A stretch of DNA of 64,000 nt, taken from assembly GCF_007004765.1 (NCBI RefSeq), contig NZ_VIKR01000003.1, forward strand, positions 124,001 through 188,000, written 5' to 3'. This document shows positions 24,580 to 45,696 of this stretch, piece after piece. Below the pieces are notes generated by a model. It was not told the origin of the DNA. It saw only the letters and a list, made by a program, of their open reading frames with translations, and did not search any database. Every line of letters starts with the position of its first letter. Within the stretch, counting starts at the first letter, position 1. A program made the translations under genes and the position numbers. This stretch comes from Aliikangiella marina (lineage in GTDB: Bacteria; Pseudomonadota; Gammaproteobacteria; Enterobacterales; Kangiellaceae).

Positions 24580-25092
24580 ATGTGTGAAGTGAATAATGTG
24601 ATAAAACTTAGAGAATTTGAAGAAAAAGACACTCAGCGATTAGTCACCTATTTAAATGACCTTGATGTGGTTAAATATTTATCCAGTAAAATCCCTTTAC
24701 CTTATACCAAAGCCGATGCCGACTGGTGGATCAATGAAGGAAGTAAACAAGATTTCGTTCGAGCGATAACTATTAACGATGAGTTGATTGGTTGTATTGG
24801 TGTTAATCGAGGAGAGTTTGAATATAATCGTTCTGGTGAGATTGGATATTGGATCGGTCGAGACTATTGGCGACAAGGTTTTGCACACGCGGCGCTTTTA
24901 CAAATGACAGAGATAGTTTTTTCGACAACGAATATCGTGCGTATTGATGCTTCAGTCTTTTCCGATAACCGACCCTCGATGAATTTGCTGCATAAATCTG
25001 GTTATCAAGAAGAAGCGATCTTAAAAACTGCGATGTACAAACATGGCAAGTTTTTTGACAAGCATATTTTTAGTCGACTGAAGCCCGATTAG
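24580..25092 (+). CDS. GNAT acetyltransferase of the RimJ/RimL type
   Basis: 170 residues. The RimJ/RimL-like layout is visible: LREFEEKDTQRLVTYLND at the start, IGYWIGRDYWRQGFAHAAL (acetyl-CoA motif A) in the middle, RIDASVFSDNRPSMNLLHKSG toward the end and the final F.KHIFSRL stretch. The family acetylates ribosomal protein N-termini, small amines or antibiotics; the target is not identifiable. A GTG at 24598 is a possible alternative start. Confidence 0.85.
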   Translation: MCEVNNVIKLREFEEKDTQRLVTYLNDLDVVKYLSSKIPLPYTKADADWWINEGSKQDFVRAITINDELIGCIGVNRGEFEYNRSGEIGYWIGRDYWRQGFAHAALLQMTEIVFSTTNIVRIDASVFSDNRPSMNLLHKSGYQEEAILKTAMYKHGKFFDKHIFSRLKPD

Positions 25093-30871: not shown

Positions 30872-30934
30872 CATACTCTTCGAGAGCTGGCACACCAGCT
30901 CTATATTAGATATTAGCAAATTGAGTGTTCGATA

Positions 30935-31222
30935 TTAATCTACGATGAAGTCTCCTGGCGGCGGTTCAATAGCTGCGGGTCGATAACACGCCTGAGGCTT
31001 TACTCGGCAGATATTTTTACTGTGTTCTGGTGTTTGCGGAATAGGGATATAAAAGTCTAGCTCGTTCTCTGTTTTATCATATTCTAAAGTGACCAAGTAT
31101 AGAGTGTGCGGGTGTAGTTCATAAATAAATGGTGCTGGCTGTCCTTGGGATTGTAGATATGAGGCTTGAACCGAAAGGGCAAACGTCAAAATTGCAATTA
31201 GTATAGTTTTTAGTGATTTCAT
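30935..31222 (-). CDS. small secreted protein, unknown, upstream of the hybrid regulator
   Basis: 95 residues: a signal peptide (KSLKTILIAILTFALSVQA), then a mature part of about 75 residues with strands (HTLYLVTLEYDKTENELDFYIP) and a Pro-rich end containing CRVKPQAC and PPPGDFIVD. The only two Cys are in C-x3-P-x2-C and could form a disulfide. It is the first gene of the leftward unit with the hybrid regulator (stop 63 bases before its ATG), so it may tune or feed that sensor (inference). The same C-x3-P-x2-C spacing occurs in the peptide at 32980. I do not recognise a family. Confidence 0.65.
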   Translation of the reverse strand: MKSLKTILIAILTFALSVQASYLQSQGQPAPFIYELHPHTLYLVTLEYDKTENELDFYIPIPQTPEHSKNICRVKPQACYRPAAIEPPPGDFIVD

Positions 31223-31777
31223 AATTTTTCCCTTCTGAAAAATAAGTTTTATTCACAATATAATTATTATAACGATGTGAATTAATTCAGATGCTTCTGA
31301 TAGCATCGTTTTTCGATGTTGTTCTATTGTAACTTCTCGATAAAACCGAGCGGCTGTGATTGTCCCAGAATCAATACAGTTTGCAGTAATAATGGTAATC
31401 AATAATGTCACTTTATTAATACAATTAGAATGCCACAGATTATTACTTGCGTGCCAAAGCATACTAACAATGAATCTAGTTTAAGGAATAACATTTTTAT
31501 CAAATTGTTGGTTTATCACAAAAAAGACCTACAAAACAATGATTTAAATAGATGAAAAAGCATGGGTTTTCACACCAAATAAAAGTCACTCTTGAATAAC
31601 GCTGGTGTTTTCATTACGTCCCAAAAGTACTCGCATGTTTCACTCAGAAACAGAGTTGTTTCTATAAATCGGCACTACTTAAACAACCCTCGGCACTGAT
31701 CTGGTAGTGGCTTATCCTAATTTTCTGAGATGCTTGGTCGCAAGTTAATGCATACCCAATGACTAGAGGCATCTCTT
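31223..31777. other. divergent regulatory region of the peptide locus
   Basis: AT-rich stretch of 555 bases between the leftward small secreted protein/hybrid regulator and the rightward acyltransferase-like gene. It contains an inverted repeat GATGCT/AGCATC around 31290-31310 and a direct repeat of TCGGCACT (listed separately). A weak leftward reading frame of 69 codons is not convincing as a gene. Confidence 0.5.
31669..31697 (+). promoter_or_regulatory. candidate AraC-type operator: two TCGGCACT direct repeats 21 bp apart
   Basis: TCGGCACT occurs at 31669-31676 and 31690-31697, in the same orientation, with start-to-start distance 21 bases (two helical turns), the geometry of AraC-family half-sites. 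A possible -10 (TATCCT, 31713-31718) would put the second copy over the -35. The repeat lies about 80-110 bases before the ATG at 31778. Binding by the hybrid regulator is inferred. Confidence 0.45.
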
Positions 31778-32929
31778 ATGGTTCAAGAATACAAATATTA
31801 CTCGAAAGATGTTGGCGATGAGTCACAGTACTTTGTGAATTACCTTGCAATCTTTGGTGAACTGATGTCGGTCAAGAAGATAAAGGCAATTTCGAAGGAA
31901 GCAGCATTGAAGCGAGTTTCTGAGATAGATAGCTTTGAAAATACATGGAATAAAAAGAATCGGCAGCTTGAAACAATAAGCCACCAGGATGCTAATTCCA
32001 TTCGTAAAACCCACGCAGCGCATAAGCGGCTTTTGATCGCGATGTTCCATTATGGCTCTCACCGACAAATAATGCTTGAGTTGAGTGAGCATTTGATTCA
32101 AACGACCTTTCCATTTGCAAAGGGAGCTTATCAAAATGCGATGGCGGATATCGCAAAAAACAATGCGGAAAAAGGGAAGTGTTACCAGCTTCTCGATGTT
32201 GAAAGTAGAAACGTCGGATTACAGTTAGCTAGAGCCATACGCCGAGGAAGAATAGGCTTAATCTATGTCGATGGTAATTTAGGGCCCGAAGGGGCTTCGA
32301 TGGATAAGGAAGATACAATCGTCAGTTTTTTCCATCGGGAAATGAAAGTTAAGTCTGGTATTGCGAGACTCGCTCATAGTTGCGATGCCGCTATTCTCCC
32401 AATATTTGCAGGCGGTAAAGAAACCCCGAAGCTACATATCGGAAAGGTAATTGCGTCCCCCCGTCATAATTCACAAAAGCTCACTGAGGAGGAGTTATCG
32501 CAATTTTCCCAGTCTACGATGCAAAGTATTTATGACGAATTAGAGAGAATTGTTCATCAGAGCCCCAGTGATTGGGAGTTTGCCTTTTGCTTACACCGCT
32601 GGCTGGTACCTAAGATTGATGCTACCGAAAATCTGAAGTCAATTTCCCTTGCTCAAGTTGACTCTGTATCAATTAACGAAAAACGCTTCGTTCCTTACTC
32701 AACGAGCGACAAATGGTACTTTGTAGACGTTGATACACAAAAAGCAATTTCATTGCCATCATGGGCTGCACCTCTTGCACAAGTCTTAAACTATCGACCT
32801 CGAGCATCCGTCGCTGAACTAATCAACGCGGTTGGGGAAAGTCCTGAAAGAACTCAATCAATTCTGTCTGAACTTTGTGAGCGAAATATTTTACAAGGTT
32901 TGTCAGTTAAGAAAGTGCAAACTTTCTAA
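31778..32929 (+). CDS. LpxL/HtrB-like acyltransferase-fold protein fused to a PqqD/RRE-like domain; candidate peptide-modifying enzyme
   Basis: 383 residues, no signal peptide. Residues 80-215 follow the lysophospholipid/lipid A acyltransferase pattern: RLLIAMFHYGSHRQIMLEL (where the family has HX4D/E), ARAIRRGRIGLIYVDGN, and FFHREMKVKSGIARLAHSCD followed by AAILPIFAGG. The acidic residue expected five places after the His is Arg, so activity may differ or be lost. Residues 308-383 (KWYFVDVDTQKAISLP through LSELCERNILQGL) resemble the small winged-helix PqqD/RRE domains that bind RiPP leader peptides. The first 80 residues are unassigned. An AGAGG Shine-Dalgarno precedes the ATG. The next gene, 50 bases on, encodes a RiPP-like peptide, so I infer a role in its modification, possibly acylation. 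Confidence 0.6.
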   Translation: MVQEYKYYSKDVGDESQYFVNYLAIFGELMSVKKIKAISKEAALKRVSEIDSFENTWNKKNRQLETISHQDANSIRKTHAAHKRLLIAMFHYGSHRQIMLELSEHLIQTTFPFAKGAYQNAMADIAKNNAEKGKCYQLLDVESRNVGLQLARAIRRGRIGLIYVDGNLGPEGASMDKEDTIVSFFHREMKVKSGIARLAHSCDAAILPIFAGGKETPKLHIGKVIASPRHNSQKLTEEELSQFSQSTMQSIYDELERIVHQSPSDWEFAFCLHRWLVPKIDATENLKSISLAQVDSVSINEKRFVPYSTSDKWYFVDVDTQKAISLPSWAAPLAQVLNYRPRASVAELINAVGESPERTQSILSELCERNILQGLSVKKVQTF

Positions 32930-32979
32930 TTCAACACTCATAAGAGTAATTTACTTAAAAACAAAAAAGGAGACTCGTC

Positions 32980-33138
32980 ATGAAGCGAGATAAGCTTGAA
33001 GAACTATCTTTAGTCGAACTAGAGGAAAGAATTGAATTTGGTTGTTGCGGCGGTGGCGGTGATGGTGGTGGGGGAGATGATACCTACGACCCATGCAATA
33101 TCGACCCGGCTGAATGCCCGATTGACGATCCGTTTTAA
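32980..33138 (+). CDS. candidate RiPP precursor peptide, 52 aa
   Basis: ATG at 32980 sits 7 bases after a strong AAAGGAG Shine-Dalgarno. The 52 residues divide into an acidic, Leu-rich helical leader (MKRDKLEELSLVELEERIEF) and a core of unusual composition. The core starts GCC, continues with two runs of four Gly separated by Asp, then DDTYDPCNIDPAEC and PIDDPF. It has four Cys (22, 23, 39, 46) and no Lys or Arg after residue 17. This leader/core contrast is the hallmark of ribosomal peptide precursors. It follows the acyltransferase-like gene by 50 bases and ends just before a strong terminator, which would let it be made in excess over the protease gene. Mature product unknown. It is short and easily missed by gene callers. 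Confidence 0.75.
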   Translation: MKRDKLEELSLVELEERIEFGCCGGGGDGGGGDDTYDPCNIDPAECPIDDPF

Positions 33139-33152
33139 TCGTTGATAAAACA

Positions 33153-33188
33153 CCGATAGTGCCTTTTTAAAGGGTACTATCGGATTTT
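33153..33188 (+). terminator. strong intrinsic terminator after the peptide gene
   Basis: CCGATAGT (33153-33160) pairs with ACTATCGG (33176-33183); the inner CCTTT/AAAGG extends the stem with one bulge, and ATTTTAG follows. It starts 15 bases after the peptide stop codon and separates the peptide from the M50 gene. Confidence 0.8.
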
Positions 33189-33217
33189 AGATTGACCAGT
33201 GTAACTAGTTGGCCCTT

Positions 33218-34402
33218 ATGAACCCGATAAAAGATCTTTATATATTAAATCCGCGATTGACGATAAGCGATTTTTCAGCGTTGCGGTCGGAAGATAAAAA
33301 ACTTTATGCATTTGACAATGGAACACTGAGTAAGCGATTTATTGTCTCATCGAGCGGGCACAATTTACTTTCATCATTTGCTTTGCCAAATAGGGTTGAC
33401 ACATATCCCCAAAACAAAGCATTCCTAGCTGCAGCTATTCGCAACAACATTCTATGCTTAAAAAAACAAGTAGCTAACAACGAATTTCAAATTAATAAAA
33501 CTAAGCCGAGTTTTATGTTGTTCAAACTAGAGATATTAAGCCCCAGATTAGTCAACAGGTTAGCAAAAAACCTTGTGCACTTAACGCAACCAATGTCGGT
33601 TAAGCTTTGTCTGTTACTAGTTGCGACCGCCTTATGCCTAGGCTTGTTTTACTCGCCCAAATTTACCTTTATGTTTTATACGTCTATGGATATCTTGTTA
33701 GTGGCGTTTTTAACGATGTTGGCGATACTTATACACGAATTAGGACATGCGATATCCGCCTACAGATATGGTGCTAGAAGAGTATCGATCGGTATTGGCT
33801 GGTATTTTATCTTCCCAGTGGCTTATGCCGACTTGTCTGAGAGTTGGGGGTTTAGTGTGAGGCAACGAATGTTGTCGACGATTGCTGGCGTCTTTTATCA
33901 GGCGGTATTTGGTTCTCTTATTTTCATCGGCTTTTTAGTCACTGAGAATATGTGTTTTTATTCCGCATCGATTGCCATATTGATTTCAATTTTATGGAAT
34001 CTCAACCCATTTTTAAGACTAGATGGTTATTGGCTTATAGTCGACTTACTTGATAATCCAAATTTGCGCAAAGAGGGTATTACGTCCGCTAAGCGATTGT
34101 TTAAGACGCCTGTTTCTGCTGAGATAAAAAAAACATCGATAATCGTATTAGTTTATGGTGTTATCTCTTTGCTGCTGTTAACCTTCTTACTTGTAAAGCT
34201 CTCGTTAGAGATATATCAAACACAAGGTTTTGGTATTTATGAAATTATTAAGCATGTGGCTACGAGCGACAACTTAGGAATAGCCGATTGGGTTTTATAT
34301 TTTGGTACAAGTTTGTGGAAAGGCTTAGCATTAATTTTTCTTAGTTGGCAAGCTTATTTATATGTTCAGAAGAAATTCATTAAACAGAGAACAAGTCACT
34401 AA
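33218..34402 (+). CDS. M50 (site-2) family membrane metalloprotease, peptide-locus type
   Basis: About 394 residues. The first 90 are soluble and contain a short PqqD-like pattern (KLYAFDNGTLSKRFIVSSSG); the rest has about six TM helices. The zinc site is HELGH near residue 173 in AILIHELGHAISAYRYGARR. The third-ligand motif NPFLRLDGYWLIVDLLDNPN near residue 262 is the family's NPxxxLDGYW form. M50 proteases of this kind (for example YydH in Bacillus) accompany RiPP peptides and may cleave the leader or help export. It follows the peptide gene after a terminator. ATG at 33218 chosen; TTG at 33209 is possible. Confidence 0.85.
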   Translation: MNPIKDLYILNPRLTISDFSALRSEDKKLYAFDNGTLSKRFIVSSSGHNLLSSFALPNRVDTYPQNKAFLAAAIRNNILCLKKQVANNEFQINKTKPSFMLFKLEILSPRLVNRLAKNLVHLTQPMSVKLCLLLVATALCLGLFYSPKFTFMFYTSMDILLVAFLTMLAILIHELGHAISAYRYGARRVSIGIGWYFIFPVAYADLSESWGFSVRQRMLSTIAGVFYQAVFGSLIFIGFLVTENMCFYSASIAILISILWNLNPFLRLDGYWLIVDLLDNPNLRKEGITSAKRLFKTPVSAEIKKTSIIVLVYGVISLLLLTFLLVKLSLEIYQTQGFGIYEIIKHVATSDNLGIADWVLYFGTSLWKGLALIFLSWQAYLYVQKKFIKQRTSH

Positions 34403-34472
34403 TGCTTAAGCAAACTTAAAACTCATTATAGCGCATGGCTGCATAGTCTATGAGATGAAAAAATCAAGAACT

Positions 34473-34497
34473 GAGAAAGGTAGCCTTTCACCTTTTT
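34473..34497 (+). terminator. probable terminator after the M50 gene
   Basis: GAAAGG (34475-34480) pairs with CCTTTC (34484-34489) around a three-base loop, followed by ACCTTTTTG. It lies about 70 bases after the M50 stop codon and before the convergent lipoprotein gene. Confidence 0.5.
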
Positions 34498-34531
34498 GAT
34501 GAGAGGCTAACATCAATAAACTTTTCTAAAA

Positions 34532-36019
34532 CTATTGGCCGATCAACTGCATAGAGTAACCTGAACCTGACTCAACATCTTCTTCGATAATTAAGTACTT
34601 ATCACCGCTATCAGCATCCAAAGTAATCGATTGAAAGTCGAGTAACAATTCGCTGCTATTCACTTGAACGATTAAACTTACATCATAAGTATTATTAGGC
34701 AAAGTAACCGTTCTCGGTGATGCTCTAGACGCGGTTGCTTTGTAATCGGCGGTAGCGACTGTTTCGTTACTTCTTACAAAATACACTTCAATTGCATCAA
34801 AATCATCATCTTGTACTAGATTGATAATTTTTATCTCATGATCGTAAAGGCTGACTCGATTACTATTCTCAACGATTAGACTATTCACATAAACAGTGGT
34901 TTCGTCGGGCGCATCATCGACTTCTTCCGTTTCCTCCGTTAAATAAAGGAAAACAGTTTTATCATCATTGGGATTTAAGCTGATAAAGTGATTTTCTGCA
35001 ATTGGCTCAATTAAGTCGTTAGGAATAATATCCATCGAGTAATCACTTGCAGAAAAAATCATTGTATCGCTCATCGTCCCAATTGCTAGGTCCTCGATTG
35101 ACTGACTCTCTTCAGTACCATCAATATTGACATCTATTACGCCTGTATACTCGGGGAGTAGTTCATGCCCTATGATGCCATTGAATAAGCGTAACTCAGT
35201 TTTAGATTCTTTGTCGGGAAAGTTACTGGTAAAGATATTAGTAATCACATCCACAGTATACTCAGAATCACTCGGACCAGTTTCTTCTCTCAATACGACT
35301 AAATACTGGTAGTTGCTGTTGAAGTCGATGGTATTTGATTCGTAAACAACTGCGTTGCTACCGGTAGCCGTGATGTATATCTTGTAGCTTTCTACATCAT
35401 ACCGCTGTACATCAGAGATCTGTTGATAAATGCTATTGGTAACAAGTTGCGCTTCATTGAAGGTTTCATTTTCTCGCGAGAGATAAACATCAACCCCAGT
35501 AGAGTCCTGATTCGCGTTAATGATTTGGAGAGAAAACTGGTCTTCGTCATCGTCGTCACTTAATGAGTCAATATCTCGATCAAACTCAAAGTAAACCAAA
35601 TCAGGTTGAGAAAAATCACCAGATATTAACACGACATCCACTCGATCATCAGTGACTTGAATATCTCCATCAAAAATATCATTGAATTCATCCTGTGACT
35701 CCTGCCAAGATATAACCATGTCATAGTCGCCACTAGAAATATTTCTAAGCGGTGAGGCAGAACCATAGGGGATCGCATCGACGATATCTGAACCGTCACT
35801 ATCGGTATAGGTTACGCGAATATTCGGTGAGTTTTTAGCAGCATTAATAAACTGTACATAACCTGTCTCATCAACATTACTTGAAGAAGAATCGCATCCT
35901 GATAGAAATGACAAACCGAATAAAGAAACAAGTAAAGTAGTGAATATTTTTAAGTGATTGACCGGATTTTGGGTCGAATTAAATCTTAGGCTTTTATCAT
36001 AAATAGTAAGGCCGCTCAT
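34532..36019 (-). CDS. DUF4397 domain lipoprotein
   Basis: About 495 residues. A lipoprotein signal ends with the lipobox FLSGC (Cys near 42) followed by a Ser-rich tether. The body is a repeat of DUF4397-like beta domains, recognised by openings such as VQFINAAKNSPNIRVTYTD, LQIINANQDSTGVDVYLSR, LRLFNGIIGHELLPEYTGV and IKIINLVQDDDFDAIEVYF. DUF4397 proteins are anchored, probably surface or periplasmic, with no assigned enzymatic role. The protein is very acidic. GGAG precedes the ATG at 36019. It is convergent with the M50 gene, and there is no evidence that it is part of the peptide locus. Confidence 0.88.
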   Translation of the reverse strand: MSGLTIYDKSLRFNSTQNPVNHLKIFTTLLVSLFGLSFLSGCDSSSSNVDETGYVQFINAAKNSPNIRVTYTDSDGSDIVDAIPYGSASPLRNISSGDYDMVISWQESQDEFNDIFDGDIQVTDDRVDVVLISGDFSQPDLVYFEFDRDIDSLSDDDDEDQFSLQIINANQDSTGVDVYLSRENETFNEAQLVTNSIYQQISDVQRYDVESYKIYITATGSNAVVYESNTIDFNSNYQYLVVLREETGPSDSEYTVDVITNIFTSNFPDKESKTELRLFNGIIGHELLPEYTGVIDVNIDGTEESQSIEDLAIGTMSDTMIFSASDYSMDIIPNDLIEPIAENHFISLNPNDDKTVFLYLTEETEEVDDAPDETTVYVNSLIVENSNRVSLYDHEIKIINLVQDDDFDAIEVYFVRSNETVATADYKATASRASPRTVTLPNNTYDVSLIVQVNSSELLLDFQSITLDADSGDKYLIIEEDVESGSGYSMQLIGQ

Positions 36020-43462: not shown

Positions 43463-44053
43463 CTACAGCATTCCCTTAGTTGTATTTTCTCCACTCGCTG
43501 GCGATAAAGCTTCACGCAGCGCATAGGCTACAGCTTTAAAGCATCCTTCAGCTAAGTGATGGTTGTTGCGGAAGTACATCGGTTTAATGTGCAAAGTGAT
43601 TGCCGCATTAGTCGCTAAGGTATTAAAAAAATGTTCGAACATTTCGGTACTGATTGAGCCAAGATTTTCTCGAGTAAATGTTAGCTCGCCGACGTAGATT
43701 CCTCGGCCAGATAAATCCACCGCACACATGATTAATGCTTCGTCCATTGGCAGCAGTCTTTGTCCGTAGCGTTGCATCGAGGCTAAGGCTCGCCAGCTTT
43801 GCTGAAGGGCGTCACCCAAGCAAATTGCGATATCTTCTACCGTGTGATGGTCATCCACATCAGTATCGCCATTGACTTCAATAGATAAATCCCATCGACC
43901 ATGAGAGGCAAGTTGCTCTAACATATGATCGAGAAATCGAATACCTGTATTAATGCTGATTTTTTGTGAACCTTGAATATTGAGAGCTAATTTAATATCG
44001 GTCTCTTTAGTTTGGCGATTCACGACTATTGTTTTTATTACCGAATCGGACAT
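43463..44053 (-). CDS. hisB: imidazoleglycerol-phosphate dehydratase (monofunctional)
   Basis: About 196 residues, the size of stand-alone HisB dehydratases rather than the bifunctional enteric HisB. Metal-binding motifs are intact: RFLDHMLEQLASHGRWDL, DVDDHHTVEDIAICLGDAL and RNNHHLAEGCFKAVAYALRE. It lacks the N-terminal phosphatase domain found in E. coli HisB; a phosphatase is instead fused to HisC just upstream. ATG at 44053 chosen over a TTG two codons earlier; it overlaps the end of hisC/HAD by 16 bases. Confidence 0.95.
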   Translation of the reverse strand: MSDSVIKTIVVNRQTKETDIKLALNIQGSQKISINTGIRFLDHMLEQLASHGRWDLSIEVNGDTDVDDHHTVEDIAICLGDALQQSWRALASMQRYGQRLLPMDEALIMCAVDLSGRGIYVGELTFTRENLGSISTEMFEHFFNTLATNAAITLHIKPMYFRNNHHLAEGCFKAVAYALREALSPASGENTTKGML

Positions 44054-45696
44054 AACCAATCCTCCAGTTCATTGATATTATTGAGTACAACATCGGCACC
44101 GGCTTGATAAAGTGTTGCGGCGTTTTGACTGCCAATACCGATGGCGAGTGAATTCGAGGCGTTGGCGGCTTGCATATCGTCGGGATTGTCGCCGCACATC
44201 CAGCTGAAATTTGAGTATTTGCTTTGTAATTTTTCTATTCCTTCTGGGGAGGGTTTTGCTTCTGTAACATCATCAAGACTAACAATATCGACATCTTCAA
44301 ATCCGACTAATTTCGTCCCTGCATTCGCTTCAAATCTGGGGCGGCCAGTCACAATTGCAAAACGGGTTTCAGATTTGCGGTTAATTTGACTGACTAATTG
44401 AGCATCAATCATTGGCGTTTCATTAGCAACCAGTCCATCATTGTTTTCACCTAAATAGATTTTCTGGAATGCGTCGGTTACCGCGTCTAAAGTAAAGTCA
44501 AAACCCCGATCGCTTAATAATTTTTGAGTAACAATCCAGTCATTATTGTAGCCCCCTGCATTTTTGAGCGACTCGATGTCTTCACTGGTAACCTTAATGT
44601 CGGATAGCAATGCAACGGTCGCAATTATTGTTGCTTCGTAGCTACCAGAAGTATCAACTAAAACACCGTCCATATCGAGACAAATAAGCTTTGGCGCAAG
44701 CGCTTGGTTTAATAAGCTCTGTAACCTTTCAAGCTCATACGGAATGGTAATACGCAAACAATTCTGCATAAGTTCATCAGTGAACGATCGGACTAAAACG
44801 CCATTTTTTGCGAGAAAAGATTTTGTCGCGAGAGCTTGTTGAGCTGGTAAACGTATTGCGACAAAGTTCGCTTCACTGGGCAATACTTCGATACCGAGAT
44901 CATTGAGCCAGCGAGATAGCGTATCGCGGTTTTGTTGAATCGTCTTACAATATTGTTTAACTTCTTCTCGGTTCGACTCTGCCAACGCGGTTTCTGCAAC
45001 AGTCAAACTAGGCTGAGGTACATTGAAAGGCATGCAACGATCGACAAAACCTTTGATCAAGTTTTCGCTCCCAAGTAAATATCCAAGACGAATACCTGCC
45101 AGTCCAAAAGCTTTGGAGAATGTTCTTAAGATAACCAAATTATTGTATCGATTAAGGAGCTCGATTGATTCACTGGGTTTATCAAAAAAGCCGCTGCTAA
45201 ACTCGATATAAGCTTCATCTAAGAATACCCAGCCACCACTTTCTTTTGCGGTTTTTAGAATCGTTTCAACATTGGCTAAACTGATCATTTCTCCTGTCGG
45301 GTTATTGGGGCGAGTGATGATGGTGATTGATGATGAATTTTGTTTAATGGCTTCAAGGGTTGCATTGATGTCAATTGATAAGTCGTCTTGGGGTGCAATC
45401 AATTGCGAATCGAGCTGCCAACTCTCAACTCCCCATGTGTACTGCGAGAAAGCAGGTAATGGTAAGATTAATTTTCCGGTTTCTTTTATCAAGCGCATCA
45501 AAATCATGATGCCCTCATCGCCGCCATTAGTGCATAAAACTTGATTTGCTTGCAAGCCGTTAAGATCTGCAAGCTGTTTTTCAAGTTTGCTACGGTCGGG
45601 ATAGAGCCATAAGTCTCTGCCGTAAATATCATTATTGGCTAATGGACTCGTGGCATCACTGCGTTCATTAAAATCCAACTTAAGCGTTTTAGTCAT
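44038..45696 (-). CDS. hisC: histidinol-phosphate aminotransferase fused to a HAD-family phosphatase
   Basis: 552 residues. Residues 1-335 are HisC, a class II PLP aminotransferase: KLDFNERSDATSPL, ITRPNNPTGEMISL, VFLDEAYIEFS and the PLP-Lys in RTFSKAFGLAGIRLGYLLG. Residues about 336-552 are a HAD-IA phosphatase: motif I LICLDMDGVLVDTSGSY, motif II near FAIVTGRPRFEANAG, motif III in the EAKPSP stretch, and CGDNPDDMQAANAS. The operon has no other histidinol-phosphate phosphatase, so the HAD part is the natural candidate for that step. AAGGAC precedes the ATG; the end overlaps hisB. Confidence 0.93.
   Translation of the reverse strand: MTKTLKLDFNERSDATSPLANNDIYGRDLWLYPDRSKLEKQLADLNGLQANQVLCTNGGDEGIMILMRLIKETGKLILPLPAFSQYTWGVESWQLDSQLIAPQDDLSIDINATLEAIKQNSSSITIITRPNNPTGEMISLANVETILKTAKESGGWVFLDEAYIEFSSGFFDKPSESIELLNRYNNLVILRTFSKAFGLAGIRLGYLLGSENLIKGFVDRCMPFNVPQPSLTVAETALAESNREEVKQYCKTIQQNRDTLSRWLNDLGIEVLPSEANFVAIRLPAQQALATKSFLAKNGVLVRSFTDELMQNCLRITIPYELERLQSLLNQALAPKLICLDMDGVLVDTSGSYEATIIATVALLSDIKVTSEDIESLKNAGGYNNDWIVTQKLLSDRGFDFTLDAVTDAFQKIYLGENNDGLVANETPMIDAQLVSQINRKSETRFAIVTGRPRFEANAGTKLVGFEDVDIVSLDDVTEAKPSPEGIEKLQSKYSNFSWMCGDNPDDMQAANASNSLAIGIGSQNAATLYQAGADVVLNNINELEDWLCPIR

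Follow-up and report, generated by a model that had tools for sequence, protein, structure and literature searches.

Among ribosomally synthesized and post-translationally modified peptides (RiPPs), several described families share parts with the locus reported here. Daptides were found through RiPP recognition elements (RREs) fused to a site-2 protease. Their precursor leaders contain the motif ELExMEAP, in which two hydrophobic residues are required for the modification dependent on the RRE of MpaB; leader removal, also RRE-dependent, is carried out by a site-2 protease that bears an RRE (PMC10036551). M50 proteases act in the maturation of epipeptides and pearlins, those of the pearlins (TglG, TmoG) cutting at the C-terminus and that of the epipeptides, EpeP, being thought to combine cleavage with export (PMC10885120). 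GNAT enzymes acylate the lipolanthines, goadvionins, lipoavitides and selidamides, the last of these on ornithine or lysine (PMC13060382), and in the diacylglycerol RiPPs (DAG-RiPPs) the lipoprotein pathway adds a diacylglycerol and an acyl group to an N-terminal cysteine (PMC12636315). Here we describe three genes of Aliikangiella marina, located in a 64,000-nucleotide stretch of contig NZ_VIKR01000003.1 (positions 124,001 to 188,000; assembly GCF_007004765.1), hereafter the window. They very probably constitute a RiPP-type locus with an unusual maturation enzyme, which we found in two bacteria of different families within one order.

Overall organization of the locus

The three genes run rightward at 31778-32929, 32980-33138 and 33209-34402, and all the open reading frames lie at these coordinates. 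Their features, all on the + strand, are as follows, with the basis of each in brackets.

31778..32929, +, LpxL/HtrB-like protein (LPLAT superfamily) with a C-terminal predicted RRE, 383 residues, proposed peptide acyltransferase (PF03279 4.5e-7; hhalign 98.7%)
31982..32578, +, acyltransferase-like domain, residues 69-267 (range of the PF03279 match)
32048-32050, 32063-32065 and 32270-32272, +, codons of His91, Arg96 and Asp165 in the acyltransferase-like domain (alignments and sequence)
32687..32881, +, predicted RRE-type winged-helix domain, secondary structure elements of residues 304-368 (AlphaFold2 model of 289-383 and Foldseek against the PDB)
32968..32972, +, AGGAG, Shine-Dalgarno-like, 7 nt 5' of the precursor ATG (sequence)
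32980..33138, +, precursor peptide, 52 residues (mutual best match with the Thalassotalea loyana precursors; shuffles 0 and 2 of 5000)
33153..33183, +, terminator- or attenuator-like hairpin separating the precursor from the protease gene (14 pairs; shuffle test)
33209..34402, +, M50 intramembrane metalloprotease, 397 residues, proposed leader peptidase (NF041824, NF058609 and PF02163, all below cut-off)
33734..33748, +, HELGH zinc motif of the M50 protease (sequence)
34004..34033, +, NPFLRLDGYW motif of the M50 protease (sequence)

An earlier note, made from the letters of this DNA, had read these genes as a ribosomal peptide pathway composed of an LpxL-like enzyme fused to an RRE, a small peptide and an M50 protease. 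The three-gene set is real, as the reading frames and the domain evidence confirm, and the RiPP-type reading is supported by the predicted RRE fold and by the recurrence of the peptide and of the three-part set in Thalassotalea loyana. With a short precursor, a leader conserved between two loci, a variable core and maturation genes next to it, the peptide would qualify as a RiPP precursor on sequence grounds. The Pfam scan covered 36 window proteins including the three of the locus, at thresholds from 1 to 1e-5, and left a few of them unmatched. Among these proteins there was no radical SAM enzyme, YcaO protein or lanthionine enzyme, just as the note had said, and also no ABC exporter or acyl carrier protein (ACP).

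The C-terminal domain is predicted to be an RRE

The C-terminal 95 residues of the enzyme (289-383) were modelled alone by AlphaFold2 from the single sequence. The model, with a mean pLDDT of 66.9, consists of three strands followed by three helices. Its top Foldseek match against the PDB is TbiB1 in complex with its leader peptide (5v1u; E 6.8e-4; TM-scores 0.55 and 0.61), and the next ones are the sactipeptide synthase entries 5why/5wgg, ThcOx (5lq4 and 8pz5) and the lasso B1 protein 6jx3. The best 12 of the 1173 PDB matches are all chains of RiPP maturation proteins, each of which we take to carry an RRE; the match at rank 13 is not such a chain, and a microcin synthetase (6gri) stands at rank 14. 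Only 2 of the 1173 matches have E <= 0.001, and the support therefore lies in the consistency of the Foldseek list. Pfam gave no PqqD match in this domain at E up to 5. By its predicted structure, the winged helix that had been expected at the C-terminus would be a leader-binding domain carried on a maturation enzyme.

The precursor peptide and a second locus in Thalassotalea loyana

The leader of the 52-residue precursor (MKRDKLEELSLVELEERIEF-GCCGGGGDGGGGDDTYDPCNIDPAECPIDDPF) ends with VELEERIEF and is followed by GCC and a core rich in glycine and aspartate. Its four cysteines are Cys22, Cys23, Cys39 and Cys46; the core contains no Lys, Arg or Ser, and the C-terminal residue is Phe.

Thalassotalea loyana LMG 22536 (genome G555), a member of the same order as A. 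marina and of another family, holds the same three parts. Its enzyme was found in the search of the genomes of the order with E 1.8e-8 over residues 154-287. This protein of 396-397 residues aligns with the window enzyme over the full length, including the C-terminal parts, and matches PF03279 at 1e-5. On one strand, the T. loyana genes encode in order an M50 protease, an arginase, the LpxL-like enzyme, a glutaredoxin and two precursors, followed by an HlyD-type adaptor, an ABC ATPase, a permease, a ketosynthase, a MaoC dehydratase, an ACP, a TauD-type oxygenase and a short-chain dehydrogenase. In the window the order is enzyme, peptide and M50 protease. Conservation in relatives, about which the earlier note had asked, is thus partial: another family also has the peptide and the set of three parts, whereas the gene order differs between the only two loci.

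The T. loyana M50 protease scores 116.2 bits against NF041824 (residues 38-394). The arginase-family protein (PF00491, 4e-46) has an N-terminal extension of ~117 residues, and the glutaredoxin-like protein sits between the enzyme and the precursors, which are 42 residues long each and end with EVEELEQRLEMSCTRCCISAN and EVEELEQRLEMSCTRCCIELN. The HlyD-type adaptor scores 90.3 bits against RND_mfp and 79.3 against darobactin DarC, both below cut-off; the ABC ATPase and the permease were identified by eye, and the ketosynthase is FabF-like. On the far side of these genes lie a regulator with a Trans_reg_C domain and a phosphopantetheinyl transferase. Judged from strand and spacing, we infer that the T. 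loyana genes form one operon, and the set is what a pathway for an exported peptide bearing an acyl chain would need. The arginase could produce ornithine from the single Arg of the core.

The relationship between the precursors was examined by ranking small frames (stop to stop, 30-150 residues), those of T. loyana being taken from three stretches that total 46.5 kb, including an overlap of ~2 kb. Against the first T. loyana precursor, the window precursor ranks first of 903 small window frames, with a score of 50 and the next frame at 36. In the reverse direction, the two T. loyana precursors rank first and second of 666 small frames against the window precursor (50 and 43, next 31). Shuffles of both sequences reached these scores in 0 and 2 of 5000 trials. 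The alignment is located in the leader, at residues 6-22 of the peptide, and the common part reads [VL]xELE[EQ]R[IL]E[FM]xC; the leader is shared by the two species and the core is not.

The acyltransferase half of the enzyme

LpxL enzymes use acyl-ACP as the donor and a His-acid pair, HX4(D/E), in catalysis. Residues 69-267 of the window enzyme match PF03279 (Lip_A_acyltrans) with E 4.5e-7 and 29.8 bits, above the cut-off of 22.3, and a profile of the enzyme pair aligned by hhalign with 14 LpxL homologues over 267 columns at a probability of 98.7%. His91 aligns to the catalytic His of LpxL, and Asp165 to an Asp of a later motif that is present in 14 of the 14 homologues. The acid of HX4(D/E) is found in 12 of the 14 and is absent in two otherwise ordinary-looking homologues, L002 with Pro instead and L051 with Gln instead. 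Both enzymes of the pair have the motif HxGSxR. The LpxL/HtrB-like pattern noticed at first sight is therefore borne out by a family match above cut-off, but not by the acid of HX4(D/E). A PDB sequence search with the enzyme pair at E up to 1 gave no match.

The M50 protease and the hairpin

The best NCBIfam match of the protease is NF041824 (daptide_HExxH) with 115.5 bits, under the cut-off of 300 and covering residues 98-333 only. The second is NF058609 (YydH/LiaK epipeptide protease) with 51.4 bits, under the cut-off of 225, and PF02163 gives 21.2 bits, under the cut-off of 27.2. Both motifs of site-2 proteases of the M50 family are present, HExxH as HELGH and the distal NPxxxxDG as NPFLRLDGYW, and the HELGH and NPxxxLDGYW motifs reported earlier are thereby confirmed. 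Translation may start at ATG 33218 rather than at TTG 33209. No match was obtained with the protease in a PDB sequence search at E up to 0.1.

The hairpin at 33153-33183 has 14 pairs and a z of -2.85, an equally good fold occurring in 3 of 200 shuffles. Its position after the precursor would fit a precursor made in excess. Rfam has no match at gathering score in 30900-34600.

Proposed mechanism and alternative explanations

The explanation that we consider probable as a whole is a minimal RiPP locus in which an RRE-guided, acyl-ACP-dependent peptide acyltransferase works together with an M50 protease that removes the leader. The domains, the predicted RRE fold, the common leader motif, the recurrence of the set and the acyl-chain genes beside the T. 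loyana enzyme come from computation; the acyl donor, the acceptor residue, the order of steps and the cleavage are proposals. The C-terminal RRE of the LpxL-like enzyme would dock onto the leader motif ELEERIEF, and the enzyme would accept an acyl chain from acyl-ACP, as the lipid A acyltransferases do, and load it onto a core side chain. Leader removal at the membrane would then fall to the M50 intramembrane protease, which is homologous to the daptide leader peptidase. The presence of an RRE implies action before leader removal, and a side-chain acceptor is therefore favoured. The likeliest acceptor would be Cys22 or Cys23, directly after the leader, because Lys, Arg and Ser are missing from the window core and because a Cys stands at the same place after the leader in T. 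loyana, two residues past [FM] in both loci. This choice is a guess among Cys22, Cys23, Cys39, Cys46, Thr35, Tyr36 and the new N-terminus.

Several observations count against this explanation. The position of the acid in HX4(D/E) is Arg96 in the window enzyme and Arg in T. loyana too, so that the usual His-acid pair is missing; therefore, either catalysis is rearranged or the reaction is different in the HxGSxR enzymes. The window and T. loyana enzymes are only 23% identical, and the full-length model built from the two sequences is poor (mean pLDDT 39.2), with an uninformative acyltransferase half. The window proteins scanned include no adjacent ACP, ketosynthase, arginase, glutaredoxin or exporter. 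Apart from the leader and Cys, the core sequence in T. loyana (SCTRCC...) does not resemble that of the window. Moreover, 3 of 10 control loci at long M50 proteins contain a small frame scoring at least 50 against the window peptide (top scores of the ten loci, 36-54), and one of the high control frames is a Gly/Asp-rich peptide, which indicates that a Gly-rich core can raise scores by itself. Since the controls reach 50 or more, a score of 50 alone proves little. The ranking with the T. loyana precursor as query, a peptide devoid of a Gly-rich part, and the location of the match within the leader are free of this bias and carry the weight. Finally, conservation rests on only two known loci.

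The most serious of the alternatives is a RiPP pathway in which the LpxL-fold enzyme performs another reaction on the peptide, or is only a scaffold for the RRE, the acyl genes of T. loyana serving another enzyme. This would agree with the Arg that replaces the acid in both enzymes, within HxGSxR, and with the lack of acyl-chain genes found beside the window copy. However, His91 and Asp165 are kept at the His and Asp positions of LpxL, 2 of the 14 LpxL homologues in the same alignment lack the acid as well, and no other acyltransferase candidate was recognised among the scanned proteins near the T. loyana ketosynthase, dehydratase, ACP and dehydrogenase; we thus consider it unlikely. We still prefer acyl transfer, given that T. 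loyana has acyl-chain genes and that no other protein able to move the chain was recognised there. Acylation of the peptide by the LpxL-like enzyme, which had first been raised as a possibility, is accordingly strengthened by these genes and weakened by the altered active-site motif, and stands as a probable inference.

It is less likely still that a larger lipopeptide pathway of the T. loyana kind has shrunk to the window locus and no longer yields a mature product. An exporter, an acyl carrier, an arginase and a glutaredoxin were not found nearby, the enzyme did not turn up in the 6 other genomes searched within the genus, and the flank genes of the locus are not together in the two same-genus stretches compared, with no shared flank order. 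All these would suit a remnant, but none of the three frames is disrupted, a good ribosome-binding site precedes the precursor and a terminator-like hairpin follows it, and the leader motif is retained. A role in acylating a lipid, with the small frame being a regulator or a chance frame rather than the substrate, is highly improbable given the predicted RRE fold and the mutual best precursor match beside homologous enzymes in two families, even though LpxL enzymes normally act on lipid A and the A. marina genome encodes three clear PF03279 proteins besides 31778-32929.

Going beyond RRE-guided acylation followed by leader removal, we tentatively propose a new RiPP class, a possibility to which we give somewhat less than an even chance. 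In such a class, an LPLAT maturase with a rewired HxGSxR site and its own RRE would put chains from acyl-ACP on core Cys as a thioester, and the leader cut by the M50 protease may allow the chain to shift to the new N-terminus; the dedicated ketosynthase set would make the chain in T. loyana, where the arginase would give rise to ornithine. Small peptides can become membrane-active through fatty acylation. Peptide lipidation by a lipid A-type acyltransferase that carries a docking domain for peptides would add an independent route to those of the GNAT enzymes and the lipoprotein pathway and would link acyl-ACP to ribosomal peptides in Gram-negative bacteria, and HxGSxR, LIY[VI]DGN, an RRE, an ELExRxE leader and an M50 protease would together form a searchable signature.

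Occurrence of the enzyme and surroundings of the locus

The enzyme was searched in overlapping sets of genomes with E-value limits of 0.001 or 0.01. It was found in 1 of 149 genomes of relatives, namely its own. Matches were obtained in 4 of 369 genomes of the class (itself and three weak LpxL-type proteins) and in 3 of 394 of the order (itself, T. loyana and one weak). The profile of the pair matched in 7 of 398 genomes of the phylum (itself, T. loyana and five weak). Within the genus of T. loyana, 1 of 3 genomes had a match (its own), and within its family 5 of 236 (its own and four weak). So far as they were inspected, the weak matches (E 1e-2 to 1e-6) are LpxL-type proteins of the ordinary kind: L002-L004 stop at the point where the RRE would begin, and eight further ones join the LpxL alignment, outside of which stand L048, which did not join, and L054, which was not entered. 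Single-protein searches of genome contigs and viral contigs found no relative of the enzyme, a two-sequence profile search of genome contigs, which relied on only two patterns located in poorly conserved regions, yielded the T. loyana locus and nothing else, and neither enzyme matched in plasmids at E 0.01. The enzyme is rare in the sampled whole genomes, which are a part of all databases.

The Pfam matches of the window proteins include histidine biosynthesis, a hybrid sensor kinase, FG-GAP, M12-type proteins and others. The one aminotransferase seen in the window, at 44038-45696, is of class I/II and lies within the histidine genes. A lone GNAT-family acetyltransferase is encoded at 24580-25092, ~6.7 kb upstream of the locus, with no sign of a link; GNATs acylate other RiPPs.

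Other loci with M50 proteases

Relatives of the M50 protease occur in 57 of 369 genomes, mostly as frames of ~690-840 residues. In four plasmid records with frames of 714-729 residues, these stand beside adaptor genes and giant proteins, and we take the loci of these four records as a different system. A leader-like pattern, [LIVMF][ED]x[RH][LIVFM][ED], is present in small frames beside the short M50 proteins of L044, L059, L064 and L060. Single matches occur also in L036, L061, L070 and L072 and in non-precursor frames of L044 and L057, and the pattern is not in the small frames of L035 or L067; no significance is assigned to these counts.

In L064 (4644-8242; a plasmid of Gemmatirosa kalamazoonensis), a peptide with LEERIEFQQCGG resembles the window leader; it is the best small frame of its locus (score 63; 0 of 5000 shuffles) and also has a PEP-CTERM-like tail below cut-off. 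It precedes a short M50 protease and a 679-residue protein in which one part resembles squalene-hopene cyclases (7.5e-12) and another, weakly, polyprenyl synthetases (0.05), and the locus is possibly a terpene-type RiPP system. Two Hymenobacter plasmids, L060 (6007-8334) and L067 (5780-8376), encode a protein of 303-309 residues, a short M50 protease and then one or two small peptides, with the motifs ALDQRLETAW, ALAPRTEIW and VLDPRTEIW. The 303-309-residue protein appears by eye to be a class I isoprenoid synthase, with a weak match for L067 only (E 0.023). By alignment, the L060 and L067 peptides are unlike the window peptide (1104 and 680 of 5000 shuffles) and fall outside the top two frames of their loci.

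L059 (6139-9738; a Muribaculaceae plasmid) contains a Cys-containing peptide with SELEEHLE (26 of 5000 shuffles) upstream of a 781-residue frame, by eye apparently an outer-membrane protein, and a short M50 protease. In L065 (5816-7996; a plasmid of Streptomyces changanensis), a Gly/Asp-rich peptide of 86 residues (FGGGYDGGGYDGGGHDGG) directly precedes a 549-residue protein that matches the T. loyana M50 protease by tblastn (7e-22) and receives no M50 call from Pfam; this looks like another pair of precursor and M50 protease. L035 (121-1473; genome G380) is a short M50 frame of 451 residues with no leader-like small frame within the 9 kb examined.

Comparison with known systems

Like the daptides (DapP/MpaP), the window locus has an M50 protease homologous to the leader peptidase, as the NF041824 match indicates, and a leader with ELEx. 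Unlike them, its protease stays below the NF041824 cut-off, its precursor ends with Phe rather than Thr, its enzyme is LpxL-like, and an oxidative decarboxylase, a class III aminotransferase and a methyltransferase were not found beside the locus among the proteins scanned. The assignment to the daptides was rejected for the protease score, the C-terminal Phe and the three missing enzymes. With the epipeptides (YydH/EpeP) and the pearlins, the locus has in common an M50 protease in the proposed maturation, as the NF058609 match of the window protease reflects; it differs from them in that neither a radical SAM enzyme nor a PEARL ligase was found among the window proteins scanned.

The GNAT-lipidated RiPPs, to which the nostolysamides also belong, resemble what is proposed here in that the product would be a fatty-acylated ribosomal peptide. 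The acyl group of selidamides can sit on ornithine (PMC13060382), and T. loyana has an arginase; a word search of an article on peptide arginases (PMC12703449) gave no mention of acyltransferase, M50, metalloprotease, Thalassotalea, Kangiella or lipid. In contrast to the GNAT systems, the candidate here is an RRE-fused, LpxL-like (PF03279) protein, and Lys and Arg are missing from the window core; the assignment was rejected since the candidate is not a GNAT. The DAG-RiPPs are similar in carrying the lipid on Cys (PMC12636315), as would the peptide proposed here. They use an N-terminal lipoprotein signal together with Lgt, LspA and Lnt, whereas the window has an LpxL-like enzyme of its own. 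No hydrophobic stretch that could be such a signal is seen in the 52-residue precursor, and on this inspection by eye the assignment was tentatively rejected.

With LpxL/HtrB the enzyme shares the fold family (PF03279), His91 and Asp165 and the proposed acyl-ACP donor, and it differs from them by HX4R in place of HX4(D/E), by the fused RRE and by the adjoining RiPP precursor. No LpxL-type RiPP maturase was found among the papers listed by our searches of the open PMC literature. Leader-guided maturation with an M50 peptidase is already known from the systems above, and the LpxL-like enzyme placed in between is, as far as we could search, apparently new.

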